From positions 1-24,284 of IMG/VR virus record IMGVR_UViG_3300032242_003012: a stretch of 24,284 bases of DNA. The stretch is one strand, 5' to 3'. Source of the stretch: a virus. The translations under genes and the position numbers were made by a program. Positions within the stretch are counted from its first letter, which is position 1. The number at the start of each line of letters is the position of its first letter. Positions 2,261 through 20,350 of the stretch are shown here, in pieces. The notes under the pieces were generated by a model. It searched no databases, had not been told where the DNA came from, and was given only the letters and a program-made list of their open reading frames with translations.

Positions 2261-2836
2261 CTACTTTCTGAACTTTTTTGTTCGTTCTTTAATAATCTTA
2301 ACTACTGGTTCTGCTAGAACAACTTCATAATGATTAAAGTCTACTTCTACTAGTTCCATATCCTCATGATGTTTTTGACTGGCAATAGTCACTACCCCAT
2401 CGTTATGGGCTAGCATAAATGGACTTTGACCTTTTACAGTTATAATATTAGTCCAGGGATGCTGTATCTTTATCTTATCTGCTTGTTCAAACGCCCAACT
2501 ATTAGGACCGATATCTCGCATTAGACGGCTAAATGGTAAAAAGTATTTGGCATACTCTGCTACTTCTGCGCCACCATAAGGTGTGCTTAGAGTAACTGCA
2601 CCTACTACTTGATCAGGCATGGCATTGGCAATATGGAGTGCATATATACCTCCCAGACTATGGGCTATAAATGCCATATCTTTTTCATCCTTCAACTGCT
2701 CTATCATTTCTGCTAGATTGTTTTTGAACCCGTTGCGGCTGTCGTAATTGATATCTATACCTTTACCTATCTTGCTTCTGATAAAGTTAAAGCTGTCACT
2801 GGTAGCACTAGCCCCGTGAATGTATACTAACGTCAT
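2261..2836 (-). CDS. Alpha/beta-hydrolase (lipase/esterase-like)
   Basis: This 191-aa protein has all landmarks of a compact alpha/beta hydrolase: an N-terminal oxyanion segment YIHGAS (residues 5-10), the nucleophile elbow AHSLGG with Ser60, an acid loop HNDGVVT with Asp146, and a C-terminal NHYEVV with His169. There is no signal peptide, so it should act in the cytoplasm. The ATG at 2836 is preferred because GGAG lies six bases upstream; a GTG at 2839, directly after the cupin stop, is the alternative. It follows the cupin gene with no gap and is surely co-expressed with it. The substrate is unknown: lipid, acyl ester or, given the nearby phasin-like gene, a polyester. Confidence 0.88.
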   Translation of the reverse strand: MTLVYIHGASATSDSFNFIRSKIGKGIDINYDSRNGFKNNLAEMIEQLKDEKDMAFIAHSLGGIYALHIANAMPDQVVGAVTLSTPYGGAEVAEYAKYFLPFSRLMRDIGPNSWAFEQADKIKIQHPWTNIITVKGQSPFMLAHNDGVVTIASQKHHEDMELVEVDFNHYEVVLAEPVVKIIKERTKKFRK

Positions 2837-2839
2837 CAC

Positions 2840-3256
2840 TTACTCCCAAGGAGTTGGCGGTGGTATTTCGCAGGGACCTTCTGCAGGTTCTGTACCGTAG
2901 TCAGCTGGGGTAATGATTTCCAAATACTCCATGTCCGGACTGTAGTCGTACAAATAGTGTACGATGCCTGGACGTTGCTGTACGCAATCGCCTGCTTCAA
3001 CTAGGTGTATTTTGTCTTCATACATAAACTTAGCCCAACCCTTTAGCATGTAAACGATTTGGAACTCAGCTACGTGAATGTGCCAGCCTGTGCCACCCGA
3101 ACCTTCTGGGGGTAAGTTAGCTTTGGTAATGTGTGCAAGCACACGCCCGTGTGTTGCATCTGCCACGCCCAGATCCTTGTAAAGAAAAAAGTCGCGAAGC
3201 CCGCCACCTTTGAACTCTACTTCGGAACCCTTAACGTGTGAAAATTTCGTAGTCAT
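2840..3256 (-). CDS. Cupin-domain protein
   Basis: This is a 138-aa single-domain cupin. Motif 1 is GTGWHIHVAEFQIVYMLKG (from about residue 56), with His59 and His61, and Gln66 at the usual Glu position. Motif 2 is GDCVQQRPGIVHYLYD, with His100. These would form a 3-His/1-Gln metal site typical of small cupins that act as dioxygenases, isomerases or metal-dependent binding proteins. The start is supported by AGGAGG upstream. It heads the cupin-hydrolase pair and has a late-type CGTAAATA box in its leader. The substrate cannot be predicted. Cupins occur sporadically in phage accessory regions. Confidence 0.88.
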   Translation of the reverse strand: MTTKFSHVKGSEVEFKGGGLRDFFLYKDLGVADATHGRVLAHITKANLPPEGSGGTGWHIHVAEFQIVYMLKGWAKFMYEDKIHLVEAGDCVQQRPGIVHYLYDYSPDMEYLEIITPADYGTEPAEGPCEIPPPTPWE

Positions 3257-11402: not shown

Positions 11403-13766
11403 ATGATTACAGTAGTCAAGCGTAGTGGCGAACGAGTTCCACTAGACATAGCAAAAATACAGAGACAGGTGGCATTTGGTTGTAAAGGCATAGATGGGGT
11501 TAGTCCGTCGATGATTGAAATCAAAGCCCAAATAGAATTACATGACGGCATGACTACCGAAACAATCGACGAGCTACTATTAAAGGCGATGGTAGACTTA
11601 ATCGATGAAGAAGAAAATCCAGAAATCAATAATGTAAATTATCAATACGTAGCAGGCCGACAAAAAGTCAGCATGTTGCGTAAAGAAGTGTATGGCACAT
11701 ACACACCACCTTCCCTATATGACATCGTTAAAAAGAACATAGATTTGGGCATGTACACGTCTGAACTATTAGACTGGTACACTAAAGAAGAATGGGACAT
11801 TATCGATCTGTTTATCGATCATGCCAAAGATGAAGAATATACCTATGCGGCTATCGCTCAATTAGCAGAAAAATATTTGGTACAGAATCGTGCCACTGGT
11901 AAGATTTATGAAACGCCACAAGTACGATATGCTATTGCGGCCGCTACTGCCTTTCACAGCGAACCTAAAGATAAGAGATTAAAATATGTTAAGGAATATT
12001 ATGAATGTGCAAGTGACGGGCACTTCACTCTTGCCACACCTGTCCTTGCTGGCCTTGGAACTCCTACTAAGCAGTTTAGTAGTTGCGTCCTTATTAGTAG
12101 TGACGATACGTTGGATTCGATCTTTGCGGCAGGAGAGATGATGGCCAAATATGCCAGCAAACGTGCAGGCATAGGATTAGAATTGGGAAGAATTAGACCT
12201 GTCGGCGCCCCAATTAGAAATGGTGAGATCAAGCATACCGGTATGATTCCATTCCTTAAGAAATGGTTTGCCGACTTACGTTCATGCTCACAAGGTGGCA
12301 TTCGTAATGCATCATGTACAGTTACATTTCCCGTCTGGCATGCACAGTTTGAAGACCTTATTGTTTTAAAGAATAATCAAGGCACAGAAGAAGTTCGTGT
12401 GCGTCAAATGGACTATAGTGTAGTAGTCAACAAGATGTTCTGGAATCGTTATCGCAAAGGTGAAAACATTACCTTATTCGATCCGCATGAAGTCCCAGAC
12501 TTGTATCAAGCATATTATCGTGACTCCGCAGAATTTGAAAAACTATATCTAAAGTATGAACAAGATAAGACAAAGAAAAAGAAAGTACTATCAGCAGAAG
12601 ATGTATTCAAGAATGGTATCCTTAAAGAACGCACTGACACGGGTAGGATTTACCTCGTTAACATTGACAACGTTATTAACCAAGGCCCGTTTGATACCCG
12701 CCTTGATCCGATATATCAAAGTAACCTCTGCCAAGAAATCCTATTGCCCACGAAGCCATTCCAAAGAATTGAAGACCCTGAAGGCAGGATTGCTCTTTGC
12801 ACTCTTGGCTCAATAAATTGGGGAGCGTTTAATAATCCACAGCAGATGCGCAAAGCGTGTCGTGTACTTGTGCGTTCGTTAAGTAACTTATTAAACTATC
12901 AAGACTTTTTATCTATCCAGAGTAAACTGGCCAACGAAGATTTTGAGCCATTGGGTGTTGGTATTACTAACTTGGCCTACTGGCATGCTAAACGCAGTCT
13001 CAAATACGGAGATAAGGAAGCCCTAGCCGAAGTTAAAAAATGGATGGAACATCAGGCCTATTTCTTAACTGAAATGAGTGTTGAGCTTGCCCAGGAAAAA
13101 GGGCCATGCGGACGTAGTCAATACACTTATTATGGTAAGGGAGTATTTCCATGGGAGCGCAGAAACCCAGGCGTAGATGAGCTTACTGACTTTGCCCCTA
13201 GCGCCAATTTGGATTGGGAAGGACTACGCAAGAATGTCTTGCAATATGGTATCCGCAATGCCACACTAATGGCTGTAGCACCAGTAGAATCTAGTTCAGT
13301 AGTTTTAAACTCTACTAACGGAATCGAAATGCCAATGGAATTGATTAGTGTAAAGGAATCAAAAGCTGGATCGTTCGTACAGGTAGTACCAGAATACAAA
13401 CGTCTAAAGAATCGTTACCAATTGATGTGGGACCAAAAAGATTGCGATGGCTATCTAAAAACATCCGCGGTTCTAGCGGCCTATATCGATCAATCGTTGT
13501 CCACTAACACATTTTATAATCCTGCACATTTCGCAGAAGGTAAGGTTCCTGGAACACTAATCGCGAAAAATCTAATGCTGGCTTACAAGTGGGGCATCAA
13601 AACTATATACTATAGTCTAATTAACAAAGTCGGCGCCAAAGCTTCTGTAACTGGCACCAGCACTAATACTATTGGAGTCAATGGACATGCCAATGGTATC
13701 ATCACCGCAGACAACGCTGTGCTTTACGAAGCCATCGATGATGACTGCGAAGCTTGTAAATTATAA
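11403..13766 (+). CDS. nrdA: Ribonucleoside-diphosphate reductase class Ia, alpha subunit
   Basis: This is the 787-aa large subunit that reduces NDPs to dNDPs. Residues 1-90 form the ATP-cone regulatory domain (ITVVKRSGERVPLD). The redox Cys pair and the thiyl-radical Cys are at expected places: Cys228 in QFSSCVLIS, Cys443 in SNLCQEI, Cys466 in LCTLGSINW. The C-terminal shuttle pair is Cys782 and Cys785 in the end CEACKL. NASCTVTFPVWH and AVAPVESSSVVLNSTNGIEM are further conserved stretches. All catalytic residues are present, so the enzyme should be active. The order nrdA-nrdB-glutaredoxin forms a complete dNTP-synthesis unit with a matching reductant. Confidence 0.97.
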   Translation: MITVVKRSGERVPLDIAKIQRQVAFGCKGIDGVSPSMIEIKAQIELHDGMTTETIDELLLKAMVDLIDEEENPEINNVNYQYVAGRQKVSMLRKEVYGTYTPPSLYDIVKKNIDLGMYTSELLDWYTKEEWDIIDLFIDHAKDEEYTYAAIAQLAEKYLVQNRATGKIYETPQVRYAIAAATAFHSEPKDKRLKYVKEYYECASDGHFTLATPVLAGLGTPTKQFSSCVLISSDDTLDSIFAAGEMMAKYASKRAGIGLELGRIRPVGAPIRNGEIKHTGMIPFLKKWFADLRSCSQGGIRNASCTVTFPVWHAQFEDLIVLKNNQGTEEVRVRQMDYSVVVNKMFWNRYRKGENITLFDPHEVPDLYQAYYRDSAEFEKLYLKYEQDKTKKKKVLSAEDVFKNGILKERTDTGRIYLVNIDNVINQGPFDTRLDPIYQSNLCQEILLPTKPFQRIEDPEGRIALCTLGSINWGAFNNPQQMRKACRVLVRSLSNLLNYQDFLSIQSKLANEDFEPLGVGITNLAYWHAKRSLKYGDKEALAEVKKWMEHQAYFLTEMSVELAQEKGPCGRSQYTYYGKGVFPWERRNPGVDELTDFAPSANLDWEGLRKNVLQYGIRNATLMAVAPVESSSVVLNSTNGIEMPMELISVKESKAGSFVQVVPEYKRLKNRYQLMWDQKDCDGYLKTSAVLAAYIDQSLSTNTFYNPAHFAEGKVPGTLIAKNLMLAYKWGIKTIYYSLINKVGAKASVTGTSTNTIGVNGHANGIITADNAVLYEAIDDDCEACKL

Positions 13767-13779
13767 TAAAAGGCAAAAA

Positions 13780-14880
13780 ATGAGTAAAGCACAATACGAC
13801 ATTAGTCGTCAGACTAATTACCTAAAAAGAAAAATGTTCTTGGATCCAGAAGGACCAGTTACTGTACAACGATTTGAAGAAGTTAAGTATCCTAAGATAG
13901 CCAAGTATGAAGAAACAGCACGTGGATTCTTTTGGGTACCAGAAGAGATCAGTCTCACCAAAGACAAAATAGATCATAAAGATGCCACTGACGCCGTCAA
14001 GCATATCTTTACCAGCAATCTGCTACGTCAAACAGCTTTAGACAGCATACAGGGTCGTGCGCCTAATCAAGTGTTTAGCCCAGTTATCTCAATTCCAGAA
14101 TTAGAAGCTCTAGTCAGCAATTGGAGTTTCTTTGAAACAAACATTCATTCAAAATCATATTCACACATTATCCGTAACGTGTATGGTGTACCTAAGGAAG
14201 AATTTAATAAGATCCATGATACTACTGAAATCGTAGAGATGGCCGCTAACATTGGCAAATACTATGAGAATCTACATAGAATTAATTGTCAAAAAGAAAT
14301 GGATGGGAGTGTTAATGAAGAAGAACATATCAAAGCCATTTGGTTGGCTCTTAATGCCAGTTACGCTCTCGAAGCCTTCCGCTTCATGGTATCATTTGCA
14401 ACTTCTCTTGCTATGGTAGAGAACAAGATCTATATTGGCAACGGCAATATTATTAGTCTTATACTACAGGACGAAATACTCCATGCAGAATGGACTGCCT
14501 TTTTGATCATGCAAGTAGTAAAAGAAGACGACCGATTTGTTAAAGCCAAACAGGAGTGCGAACAAGAAGTTTACCAAATGTATCTAGATGTCATCCGAGA
14601 AGAAAAGGCATGGGCAGATTATCTGTTCAGTAAAGGTGTAGTCATCGGATTGAATGCACAGATTCTAAAAGATTTTGTTGACTATACAGCATTTACTCGC
14701 TTGAAAGAAATTGGTATCAAATATCTTGAGGATCATCCTCGCCAGAGTCCAATCCCCTGGTTTAACAAGCACGTAAATATCAATAAGAAACAAACAGCAT
14801 TACAAGAAAACGAATCAACTAATTATGTTATCGGGGTAATGAGCGATAACGTAATTTACGAAGAACTACCGGAGTTATAA
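13780..14880 (+). CDS. nrdB: Ribonucleotide reductase class Ia, beta subunit
   Basis: This is the 366-aa diiron-tyrosyl radical subunit. The start at 13780 (AAAGG upstream, MSKAQYDISRQ) is chosen over an in-frame extension into nrdA. Ligands by comparison with E. coli NrdB are Asp88 (LDSIQGR), Glu119, His123, Glu198 (LEAFRFMVSF), Glu232 and His235 (DEILH); the radical Tyr127 is in HSKSYSH. The Glu119-His123 segment reads E-T-N-I-H, one residue longer than the E-T-I-H of E. coli, while the Asp88-Glu119 and Glu198-Glu232 distances are unchanged. The C-terminus (YEELPEL) should dock to NrdA. It follows nrdA by 13 bases. Confidence 0.96.
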   Translation: MSKAQYDISRQTNYLKRKMFLDPEGPVTVQRFEEVKYPKIAKYEETARGFFWVPEEISLTKDKIDHKDATDAVKHIFTSNLLRQTALDSIQGRAPNQVFSPVISIPELEALVSNWSFFETNIHSKSYSHIIRNVYGVPKEEFNKIHDTTEIVEMAANIGKYYENLHRINCQKEMDGSVNEEEHIKAIWLALNASYALEAFRFMVSFATSLAMVENKIYIGNGNIISLILQDEILHAEWTAFLIMQVVKEDDRFVKAKQECEQEVYQMYLDVIREEKAWADYLFSKGVVIGLNAQILKDFVDYTAFTRLKEIGIKYLEDHPRQSPIPWFNKHVNINKKQTALQENESTNYVIGVMSDNVIYEELPEL

Positions 14881-14881
14881 A

Positions 14882-15106
14882 ATGAAAGCTATTGTATGGA
14901 GTAAAAATGCCTGCCCTTTCTGTGATCAGGCCAAGAATCTGCTCAAACTGAAGGGTATTGAATTTGAAGAGCGCAATGTAAGTAAAGATTGGACCAAAGA
15001 GCAACTGCTAGAAGCAGTACCTACTGCGAGGACAGTACCGCAGATATTTTTAGATGAGGAACTGATTGGTGGATTCACAGAGCTCAAAAAATACTTTAAT
15101 TCTTAA
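14882..15106 (+). CDS. Glutaredoxin
   Basis: This 74-aa protein is a minimal glutaredoxin: active site CPFC (Cys11, Cys14) after a first beta strand (MKAIVWSKNA), the cis-Pro segment TVPQIFLD and the glutathione-binding GGFTEL. It starts one base after the nrdB stop, so it is very likely the electron donor of the phage ribonucleotide reductase, like T4 NrdC. The size is at the short end of the family but all elements are present. The start of the next gene lies inside its 3' end. Confidence 0.95.
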   Translation: MKAIVWSKNACPFCDQAKNLLKLKGIEFEERNVSKDWTKEQLLEAVPTARTVPQIFLDEELIGGFTELKKYFNS

Positions 15107-15699: not shown

Positions 15700-16374
15700 A
15701 TGAATGTTAGACTACTTAGTTACTCACAGCCAACTAAAGAATTCGCCGAGCTGGGTATCGGCGACGCCCAGGAACTCATTGCCTATTGCGCCCGTGTGTC
15801 CAATCCAAGCAATCAATTCAATACGGAAACATCCGAAAAACTTATACGATACCTTATCAAACACCAGCACTGGAGTCCTCTCGAAATGGTCTCAGCCTGT
15901 CTCGAAATCACCACTACCAGAGACATTGCAAGACAAATACTTAGACATCGTAGCTTCAGCTTCCAGGAGTTCAGTCAGCGATATGCTGACCCTACTAAAG
16001 ACCTGTCGTTTGTATGTAGAGAAGCACGATTGCAAGATACAACTAACAGACAAAACTCAAGAGAGCTTGACCTCGAGGACGATATGCACAGACAGATCGC
16101 GTATCAATGGGAAAATCTACAAAGAGATATCATTGATAAAACTAGATCGGCCTACGAATGGGCTATCAGTCGTGGCATAGCTAAAGAACAAGCTCGTGCA
16201 GTCTTACCTGAAGGACTGACTGTTAGTCGAATGTACATGAATGGTACTCTGCGCAGTTGGGTACACTACATTGATCTACGTAGTGCTAATGGCACACAAC
16301 TAGAACATCAGGAAATCGCTATCGCTTGTGCAAAAGTAATAGCCGAAGTATTTCCAATGGCTTCTACACTATAA
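15700..16374 (+). CDS. thyX: FAD-dependent thymidylate synthase ThyX
   Basis: This is a 224-aa protein with the complete ThyX motif RHRSFSFQEFSQRY (Arg82-Tyr95, pattern RHRxxSxxxxSxRY) that binds FAD and dUMP. It also has an upstream HWSPLEMVSACLEI helix and a C-terminal SRMYMNGTLRSWVHYIDLR segment. It converts dUMP to dTMP using methylene-tetrahydrofolate, FAD and NADPH. Together with nrdA, nrdB and glutaredoxin it gives the phage control of the thymidine pool. It starts six bases after the coiled-coil ORF. The length is normal and no residue looks missing. Confidence 0.97.
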   Translation: MNVRLLSYSQPTKEFAELGIGDAQELIAYCARVSNPSNQFNTETSEKLIRYLIKHQHWSPLEMVSACLEITTTRDIARQILRHRSFSFQEFSQRYADPTKDLSFVCREARLQDTTNRQNSRELDLEDDMHRQIAYQWENLQRDIIDKTRSAYEWAISRGIAKEQARAVLPEGLTVSRMYMNGTLRSWVHYIDLRSANGTQLEHQEIAIACAKVIAEVFPMASTL

Positions 16375-16378
16375 TGTC

Positions 16379-16858
16379 ATGTCAAATCTAGCAAAGGGGC
16401 GAGATAGCTACGATTCGACTAGTACAGGACTAATAGCATTTTTTAATAGGAACATAACTCCTTATCCTACAGAAGTAGGTGGCCCTGCGTTTGACCTAAT
16501 ACCTGTAGAAAAGCAAAAAGACCTAATGGTTAATATTGCTCGTATGCACGGCCAGCAGGAATACAATCGTATTATGGAATTGGTAAGTGTTTTACAAAAG
16601 CAAGCTGAATCTATAAAACGAAGATTAGAAATCACAGATGCTGTACATGCGGCCAAATACCAGTTCCAAGTAGCACACGGTCAGATATATTGGCTGGCAT
16701 GGGACACTAGGCATAAATGTACTTTACTAACACACCACGGACCAGATGATTGGTCTACTGGTAAACCAGAAAATTACGACTATATTGCCCAAGTAAAATA
16801 CTTAGGGGATTACAGTTGGCAAGAAGTTGACAAAGAGGGAAATTATGTTAATCAATAA
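16379..16858 (+). CDS. DUF2452-type conserved protein
   Basis: This is a 159-aa soluble protein. A helical N-terminal part (QKDLMVNIARMHGQQEYNRI, then VLQKQAESIKRRLEI) is followed by a compact beta-rich C-terminal part (KYQFQVAHGQIYWLAWDT, then HHGPDDWSTGKPENYDYIAQ, then KYLGDYSWQEV). The pattern YxFxxxxGxxYxLx... PxxW ... YxAxVKxLxDxxW fits my memory of the DUF2452 family. Function is unknown. It starts four bases after thyX, and the next gene overlaps its 3' end by 14 bases. Confidence 0.78.
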   Translation: MSNLAKGRDSYDSTSTGLIAFFNRNITPYPTEVGGPAFDLIPVEKQKDLMVNIARMHGQQEYNRIMELVSVLQKQAESIKRRLEITDAVHAAKYQFQVAHGQIYWLAWDTRHKCTLLTHHGPDDWSTGKPENYDYIAQVKYLGDYSWQEVDKEGNYVNQ

Positions 16859-17135
16859 AGGTCTAAGCAACGGAGACGTTGTAAGTATTAAAATACTCAA
16901 CGGTGATGAGATCATCGCACGTTTTGAATCAGAAGATAAAGATACTGTTACTATCAGTCGTCCACTAGCTCTTACTATGGGCGCACAGGGGTTGGGTATG
17001 ATTCCTTGGGTTTTTTTAGGTAATTCAGAAAAGATTACTCTACAGCGTAATCATGTATTCTTTGTTGTTCCAAGCAAGAAAGATGCGGCTGATCAGTATA
17101 TGGAAGGCACCACTGGAATCGCCCTGGTTAAATAA
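16845..17135 (+). CDS. Small Sm-like beta-barrel phage protein (tentative)
   Basis: The ATG at 16845 has GAGGGA four bases upstream and is preferred over an in-frame TTG at 16827. The 96-aa product is beta-rich: LSNGDVVSIKILNGDEIIAR, FESEDKDTVTISRPLAL, then IPWVFLGNSEKITLQRNHVF. The sequence 'GDxVxIKxxxGxEIxAxF...TxxxxxPL' resembles the first strands of an LSm/Sm-type barrel, an RNA-binding or scaffold fold, and similar proteins occur in T4-like marine phages as I recall. There is no direct evidence for RNA binding. Confidence 0.72.
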   Translation: MLINKGLSNGDVVSIKILNGDEIIARFESEDKDTVTISRPLALTMGAQGLGMIPWVFLGNSEKITLQRNHVFFVVPSKKDAADQYMEGTTGIALVK

Positions 17136-19071: not shown

Positions 19072-19100
19072 TTGACAACATCCCTAGATTGTTGTATAAT
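19072..19100 (+). promoter_or_regulatory. Consensus sigma70 promoter for the basic peptide-tmRNA unit
   Basis: TTGACA (19072-19077), a 17-base spacer and TATAAT (19095-19100) are a perfect match to the bacterial housekeeping promoter. Transcription should begin near 19107 and run through the 33-aa ORF and the tmRNA to the terminator at 19605. Such a strong host-type promoter implies early or constitutive expression. Confidence 0.92.
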
Positions 19101-19129: not shown

Positions 19130-19231
19130 ATGCCAAGTCCACGTAGAGTTAGTCAAATTTTAAAACGTAAAACCTCTTCAAGTGTTTTGGGTAAGCGTAA
19201 AGCTAGTCCAAAACCTAGAAAACGCAAGTAA
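19130..19231 (+). CDS. 33-aa highly basic peptide encoded upstream of the tmRNA
   Basis: The ATG follows AAGAAAGGTG and the ORF ends at TAA 19229-19231. The product starts MPSPRRVSQILKRK and ends ASPKPRKRK; about 40 percent of residues are Lys or Arg and none are acidic. It lies directly between a consensus sigma70 promoter and the tmRNA acceptor piece, leaving only a few bases before the RNA. Its composition resembles ribosomal-protein tails, small nucleoid proteins or RNA-binding peptides. It has no visible fold or known family. The ribosome binding site, promoter and composition support expression. Confidence 0.72.
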   Translation: MPSPRRVSQILKRKTSSSVLGKRKASPKPRKRK

Positions 19232-19298
19232 AGAATTGTTGTAATCCCTTCAAAGCGAAGGACTTCTGGACGTGGGTTCGACTCCCACCTGGTCCACC

Positions 19299-19393
19299 GA
19301 AGTATATTAGAATCCGTAAAAAGATCAGGTTTGGTATCCCAGTCACTGTCTTGGCATAGCCAGCATACTTAATAAACCGTAGTATATTTCGTT
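19299..19393 (+). other. Intervening segment of the permuted tmRNA precursor
   Basis: This approximately 95-base spacer lies between the acceptor 3' end and the coding-piece 5' end. It should be removed during maturation, leaving two separate RNA chains held by base pairing. It contains the repeated word AGTATATT (19301-19308 and 19381-19388) near both boundaries, which might help processing. No ORF with a ribosome binding site is visible. Confidence 0.7.
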
Positions 19394-19463
19394 GGGCCAG
19401 CCATGGTTTCGACAGGGGTAGATAGTAGAGACGGCAACACAGTAGGCGATGACTGTAAATCAA

Positions 19464-19556
19464 GCAAAACATACAAATGCAAAAACATTTGAATTCAAGA
19501 CATTCAGCGTAGAAGAAGTTGCTAGCAACGACTTCGCGTTCGAACTAGCGGCCTAA
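19464..19556 (+). other. tmRNA tag reading frame
   Basis: The reading frame ends GAA CTA GCG GCC TAA. Reading from the GCA at 19464, eight bases after the preceding hairpin, gives a 30-residue tag that starts AKHTNAKTFE and ends SNDFAFELAA. A second in-frame GCA (19479) would give 25 residues. The ELAA end fits the small-hydrophobic C-terminal degrons of other tmRNA tags, recognised by ClpXP and related proteases. The tag is long compared with the roughly ten residues common in proteobacteria. Confidence 0.85.
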
Positions 19557-19604
19557 GAAACCGCACTTGCGAGGCAACTATGCCTTGTCATCCAAAATAG
19601 TAAG

Positions 19605-19630
19605 AACCCGCTTTGGCGGGTTTCTTTTTG
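19605..19630 (+). terminator. Rho-independent terminator after the tmRNA
   Basis: AACCCGC (19605-19611) pairs with GCGGGTT (19616-19622) around a TTTG loop and is followed by TCTTTTTG. It closes the promoter-peptide-tmRNA transcription unit. Confidence 0.93.
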
Positions 19631-19693
19631 ATTCTTGTAAACTTTCCTCGGGACTAGCACGTTATTAGTGTATATAAACCCAAGGAGGGTATT

Positions 19694-20089: not shown

Positions 20090-20350
20090 ATGAACCACAA
20101 AGACGAATTCGAATACAACAATGAAGAAGAAGCCGAAATGGCTCAGATTCATTCCATCCACATGCATATGAATGCAGTCGCTGAAGTTCAGCGTAAGTTA
20201 GAAAAACAAGCTGAACAGCCTAGCCTAGAGGAATGCGAAGACTGTGGGGAAGAAATTCCCCTAGCCCGAAGAGAAGCAATTAGAGGGGTACAGCGTTGCA
20301 TCCATTGCCAAGAAATTCTTGACAAACGTAAAAAACTCTACGGGGCCTAG
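20090..20350 (+). CDS. DksA/TraR-type zinc-finger protein
   Basis: This 86-aa protein has a helical acidic N-terminal half (YNNEEEAEMAQIHSIHMHM, then VAEVQRKLEKQAE). The C-terminal C4 zinc finger is CEDCGEEIPLARREAI with Cys49 and Cys52, then RCIHCQEILDKRKK with Cys70 and Cys73. This is the DksA/TraR signature (CxxCGxxIPxxR...CxxCQ). Short members such as TraR and phage homologues bind the RNA polymerase secondary channel and change promoter choice without needing ppGpp. It is therefore a candidate modifier of host transcription. Its stop interlocks with that of the convergent gene. Confidence 0.88.
   Translation: MNHKDEFEYNNEEEAEMAQIHSIHMHMNAVAEVQRKLEKQAEQPSLEECEDCGEEIPLARREAIRGVQRCIHCQEILDKRKKLYGA

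Follow-up and report, generated by a model that had tools for sequence, protein, structure and literature searches.

The stretch of viral DNA analysed here, positions 1 to 24,284 of IMG/VR record IMGVR_UViG_3300032242_003012 (hereafter the window), almost certainly carries a permuted tmRNA gene, and the tag that this gene encodes is 25 residues long, AKTFEFKTFSVEEVASNDFAFELAA, against the usual 10. The extension is under protein-level purifying selection, and the extended tag module is restricted to phages within the sets we searched. The novelty appears to lie in this tag and not in the permutation. tmRNA releases stalled ribosomes and labels the unfinished protein for degradation, and its tags are usually seen as short degradation labels common to host and phage.

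A permuted tmRNA gene and its surroundings

Two covariance models from Rfam and one gene finder agreed on the locus. RF04321 (tmRNA_permuted) matched positions 19237-19556 over its whole model (120.6 bits against a cut-off of 47, E 2e-23), RF01850 (beta_tmRNA) matched 19173-19590 (112.7 bits against 84, E 6e-34), and ARAGORN called a permuted tmRNA at 19207-19647 with the tag given above. The first-pass annotation had placed a permuted two-piece tmRNA, borne by a phage and containing a tag ORF, at 19238-19600 and had proposed a covariance-model search as its check; both models returned matches above cut-off, and the prediction holds up.

The gene lies on the plus strand. Its 3' piece (19237-19298, from the two Rfam alignments and the sequence) comes first and contains a tRNA-like T arm (19272-19288), the 3' acceptor strand CTGGTCC (19289-19295) and a discriminator, A19296, followed by CC, so that the full CCA is not encoded. 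The 5' piece (19394-19478) opens with the other acceptor strand, GGGCCAG (19394-19400), and continues through the conserved TGGTTTCGAC and a reduced pseudoknot-region hairpin to a resume signal, ACAAAT, ahead of the tag. All seven acceptor pairs form, exactly where the first reading had put them. The third is G19396-U19293, that is G3-U70, the alanine identity pair of the acceptor stem. Twelve more pairs between the halves (19298-19309 with 19380-19391) stack on the acceptor stem and extend it, so the precursor would be one long hairpin; the fold of 19289-19400 has a z score of -4.5, and none of 200 shuffled sequences folded as well. The intervening segment (19299-19393), whose ends make up the 12-pair stem of this fold, is expected to be removed. 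Resume codon, tag ORF and stop codon are all present: ARAGORN and the codon analysis of the tag class place the tag ORF, 25 codons and a TAA, at 19479-19556. An 8-pair hairpin 3' of the tag (19569-19588, from the Rfam alignment and the fold) corresponds to the last stem of RF01850.

Putative expression signals flank the gene on the same strand. A sigma-70-type promoter, TTGACA-17-TATAAT, agrees with the consensus at 12 of 12 bases (19072-19100) as a pattern match only; a simple promoter scan is by itself not significant (2 found, 1.9 expected). An intrinsic terminator with an 8-pair stem and a T-rich tail lies at 19604-19623 (19604-19631 when delimited more widely). Between promoter and tmRNA, a Lys/Arg-rich ORF of 33 residues was read from the sequence, MPSPRRVSQILKRKTSSSVLGKRKASPKPRKRK (19130-19231, plus strand). 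It is probably on the same transcript as the tmRNA, and it had no match in Pfam or PHROG. A DksA/TraR-type zinc-finger protein is encoded just 3' of the tmRNA unit (20090-20350), as one also is in L110, which in its tag and its gene neighbourhood stands nearest to the window. Far upstream, at 2261-3256 on the minus strand, a cupin protein adjoins an alpha/beta hydrolase-like ORF, an unusual phage cargo.

The upstream neighbourhood is conserved. On the plus strand it comprises NrdA (11403-13766), NrdB (about 13696-14880), glutaredoxin (14882-15106), ThyX (15700-16374) and a phrog_527 protein (16845-17135). Each of 72 related loci has a phrog_527 homologue upstream of the tmRNA, on the tmRNA strand, and phrog_527 and glutaredoxin keep this arrangement wherever they are found in related loci, whatever the tag class. 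Might the gene simply be a functionless host tmRNA remnant left at an integration site? Integration into host tmRNA genes is common (PMC11915505). However, both pieces of the window gene are complete, expression signals are present, scans of the window proteins identified no integrase, and the fixed genomic place across all 72 loci contradicts the idea, which we find hardly credible.

Permutation does not identify the host

Permuted two-piece tmRNA on a phage is by itself not new, because such genes have already been published. One report describes a two-piece ssrA in phage Melnitz and counts 133 distinct phage tmRNAs with 53 two-piece genes among them, 50 of these marine or aquatic (PMC9004378). 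Another study lists 79 phage tmRNA sequences (PMC11915505), and huge phages with tmRNA and SmpB have been described (PMC7162821). Our pattern scan of IMG/VR gave at least 119 permuted-type matches. The earlier remark that phage tmRNA genes are uncommon therefore stands for phages at large but not for aquatic phages, given these matches and the counts in PMC9004378.

ARAGORN also called permuted tmRNAs in cultured isolates: the Stenotrophomonas phages Bhz51 (Menderavirus) and QDWS359, Pseudomonas phage PA_L9, Alcaligenes phage QDWS595, Acinetobacter phage BUCT628, and the Xanthomonas phages X1 and Rb1. Those from Stenotrophomonas, Acinetobacter, Pseudomonas and Xanthomonas phages are beta-like, and all four isolates scanned with Rfam (Bhz51, PA_L9, QDWS359 and X1) passed tmRNA_permuted. 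The permuted tmRNA is missing from the deposited annotation of five isolates (L417, which is PA_L9, and L418, L419, L421 and L422), whose hosts include one-piece tmRNA genera.

The first-pass annotation had taken permutation to point to a host lineage with two-piece tmRNA. We reject this inference, since permuted phage tmRNA is not confined to permuted hosts: permuted genes occur in isolate phages of Stenotrophomonas and Acinetobacter, whereas the genomes sampled from those genera, Stenotrophomonas tumulicola and Acinetobacter ihumii, have one-piece, full-length tmRNA (RF00023, about 189 bits). In the order around a Rhodoferax genome, a clear permuted gene was found in about 7 of 200 genomes, and nearly all others examined were one-piece. 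Searches of betaproteobacterial-type genomes with RF01850 and RF04321 gave mostly weak matches, which ARAGORN called as one-piece genes. Phage gene permutation is thus a caution against reading host type from a permuted tmRNA.

A class of phage tmRNAs with extended tags

The window tag consists of an N-terminal module, AKTFEFKTFSVEEVA, and a host-like ending, SNDFAFELAA. Its last residues, ELAA, form an LAA-type ending like that of ssrA tags directed to ClpXP and ClpAP, and the NYAFA ending of Lon-directed, Mollicutes-type tags is absent from it.

Tag length separates phage tmRNAs into two groups. Our IMG/VR scan was blind to the tag, and tags could be called in 113 of the matches listed; among these, 84 were of 8-15 residues, 29 of 22-32, and none of 16-21. 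We then described the module as a DNA pattern (TGGTTTCGAC, 58-88 bases, then ACNTTYGANTWY), which occurred in 102 viral stretches, most of them permuted tmRNAs. Among the matches listed, the extended-tag class (22-32 residues) comprises 92 records including the window, with 43 distinct tags, gene and tag being called by one program in every record. The aligned tags share A-x-A-x-T-F-[DE]-[FY] near the start and then diverge into variable endings: 39 of the 43 end in [LIVMF]AA, and the host-like AND-type stretch is kept in 18 and missing in 25.

Some records depart from this plan. L035, L037 and L097 have another type of extended tag, for example AKANTQSGVKVTVGKGFRFGGSKSARTEAAFA, that lacks the usual LAA ending, and proteins so tagged may therefore be stable or handled differently. 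In L160, a short internal duplication in the extended tag gene shifts the frame and ends the tag early, giving a broken or alternative allele.

The extension is selected as a peptide

We compared distinct sequences of the class along minimum spanning trees. Third codon positions account for 65 of the 100 substitutions in the extension, and the computed dN/dS is about 0.26 (P about 1e-10 for both tests). The structural 5' piece, put through the same substitution analysis, showed no codon periodicity in any frame. Of 41 distinct extended tags, 40 have the resume hexamer NNAAAN directly ahead of them, whereas the hexamers ahead of the internal Ala-Asn do not match it. Stop codons interrupt the other two frames in 32 and 33 of the 41. 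We conclude with high confidence that the extension is translated and selected as a peptide.

Alternatively, the extension could be constrained as RNA structure, a pseudoknot or hairpin, with the peptide incidental. Part of the window tag can indeed form a hairpin (19503-19544). However, this hairpin is no better than those of shuffled sequences (z = -1.1), and RNA pairing would not be expected to give an excess of third-position substitutions. The RNA-structure explanation is largely refuted and, in our judgement, very improbable.

The module is found in phages and its presence has changed repeatedly

The module pattern matched 116 times in 84,980 bacterial and archaeal genomes. ARAGORN found no tmRNA at any of these 116 loci and recovered the window in the same batch; this negative holds for a single exact DNA pattern and for one genome of each species, with some stretches masked. 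With the window tag and a 28-residue tag of the class as short queries, tblastn found no match in 50,697 annotated phage records. We also considered whether the extension derives from a phage protein or another known protein, and tblastn against the viral loci, annotated phage records and PDB yielded nothing convincing. The main texts of openly accessible articles that were searched contained no report of such extended phage tags.

L110 has the tag ANTFEFKTFSVKEVASNDFAFELAA. In an NrdB tree, it and the window group with strong support with L107, L067, L108, L002 and L040, all of which have short tags. The NrdB tree requires at least 9 changes of tag class, and a tree of the tmRNA core, which is short and weakly resolved, requires 17. 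Given these repeated changes in a constant neighbourhood, the extension has been repeatedly gained, lost or exchanged within one genomic niche. The core tree, weakly supported, also sets hosts apart from most phage sequences. Four short-tag members of the window's clade (L107, L108, L002 and L080) have a longer 5' domain from TGGTTTCGAC to the resume codon, about 109 bases or more in short-tag relatives against about 87, which suggests that phages have exchanged tmRNA domains with one another. A T4-type gp23 capsid gene is present in 6 of 18 larger extended-tag contigs (270-383 kb).

What the extended tag may do

Taken together, the sequence features indicate that the window probably encodes a working, beta-like permuted phage tmRNA that would rescue ribosomes with host SmpB and retune the fate of the tagged chains. 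Activity in ribosome rescue, taken alone, we consider quite likely. Host tRNA-processing enzymes would cut out the middle of the precursor hairpin to leave two base-paired pieces, and host alanyl-tRNA synthetase would charge the product through G3-U70. SmpB, assumed to be the host's, would then bring it to stalled ribosomes; neither the window nor any of 15 related phage contigs of up to 383 kb yielded an SmpB. By analogy with the family, the ribosome would resume on the phage tag, add 25 residues ending in ELAA and terminate. The freed ribosome could return to phage translation, and the broken chain would pass through ELAA to a Clp-type protease. The module T-F-[DE]-[FY] might change the handling of the tagged chain, for instance which unfoldase or adaptor receives it; this is the weakest step.

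Perhaps phage tmRNA instead acts as a decoy against host trans-translation, tying up SmpB or stalled ribosomes? A decoy role has been proposed for the tag-less tmRNA of mycobacteriophage DS6A (PMC4131195, PMC11915505), and since these phages lack SmpB, excess phage tmRNA would compete with the host's. However, a decoy would have no need of a resume signal, a reading frame with its stop codon or a degradation ending, and the extended-tag genes keep all of these under selection. Hence we regard a decoy as highly unlikely.

A more serious competitor holds that this is an ordinary rescue tmRNA in which the extension is a generic, soluble, stop-free linker and the host-like ending does all the work. 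The [LIVMF]AA ending kept in nearly all distinct tags fits such a linker, as do the frequent changes of tag class on both trees. Plain ANDEQFALAA tags serve close relatives from the NrdB clade of the window, which makes the extension dispensable. However, T-F-[DE]-[FY] is kept across divergent phages while endings vary, which is more specific than a linker needs, and more than half of the distinct extended tags lack the AND-like stretch. We judge a mere linker unlikely, though it deserves real weight. That the extension would alter the choice of protease or adaptor is a tentative proposal, which we doubt slightly more than we credit. The first-pass annotation had suggested that tagging might be redirected by a phage copy. 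An extended, phage-only tag, a feature which that annotation did not mention, lends this possible effect some support.

We examined Clp genes as candidate partners. Among the larger contigs, ClpS was present in 17 of the 18 that have extended tags and in 1 of the 19 that have short ones (Fisher P 2e-8); L009, for which no tag was called, encodes ClpS as well. Could ClpS be tied specifically to the extended tag? We set this aside as confounded by lineage: L100, the one long short-tag contig within the NrdB clade, has ClpS, and the short-tag larger contigs are largely from other phage lineages. We therefore treat the association as lineage-level: ClpS, ClpA and ClpP are frequent in phages of this lineage, and the Clp link to the extended tag may reflect only shared ancestry. 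Of the 38 larger contigs, 9 extended-tag and 2 short-tag ones encode full-strength ClpP (at least 200 bits). ClpA-like proteins of about 750 residues occur in both tag classes, with an IGF loop at the site of the IGL loop of ClpA, which is the ClpP-docking loop. None of the 38 encodes an SspB adaptor. Family scans found no Clp gene among the proteins of the window, itself a 24-kb fragment. L386, L397 and related T4-like contigs (200-383 kb) encode a ClpP that is close to cellular ClpP and keeps the catalytic Ser motif, together with ClpA-like unfoldases bearing the IGF loop, and ClpS; neither SspB nor SmpB turned up in them. Large T4-like phages could conceivably run a tag-and-destroy route of their own, with the module read by phage ClpS, ClpA and ClpP or by another dedicated partner, and we think this rather doubtful. 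If it were true, the phage would take over from the host adaptor SspB the sorting of the products of stalled translation in the infected cell.

A recurrent, selected module that comes and goes among close relatives, and that the bacterial genomes searched do not have, suggests that phages use the tag itself. Why phages carry tmRNA is a long-standing question, and sister phages with extended and short tags make it testable.

Comparison with known systems

Like the window, Methylophilales phage Melnitz, a T4-like aquatic phage, has a complete permuted ssrA (PMC9004378). The Melnitz gene is reported to be of alphaproteobacterial type with a glutamine riboswitch (PMC9004378), whereas the window gene scores as beta type and Rfam found no riboswitch. 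The extended tag is a feature of the window, and the parts of PMC9004378 available describe no tag extension for Melnitz.

The betaproteobacterial permuted tmRNA (RF01850) shares with the window the permutation, the tRNA-like core, the reduced 5' domain and the terminal hairpin. However, a host copy (L327) scores 296 bits with this model against 112.7 for the window, and intervening segments are longer in phages than in betaproteobacterial permuted host tmRNA. Six of the seven permuted host tags sampled have 10 residues and one has 11; the window tag has 25. The isolate phages (Menderavirus, Samunavirus PA_L9, Alcaligenes QDWS595 and Acinetobacter BUCT628) have permuted genes, some unannotated, with tags of only 10-14 residues.

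The accessible portions of two reports on Rak2-like jumbo phages, Atu_ph07 (PMC6102473) and AP-J-162 (PMC11242549), describe phage-encoded Clp proteins. AP-J-162 has a tmRNA and Atu_ph07 does not, and those portions mention no tag extension for either phage (PMC11242549, PMC6102473).

The ssrA tag of Mollicutes (Mesoplasma) is longer than usual, has a different ending and is read by Lon (PMC9382460). Mollicutes tags end in NYAFA, in cells without active ClpXP (PMC9382460), whereas the window tag ends in ELAA. The Mollicutes tag is the best precedent for the altered protease choice that we propose.
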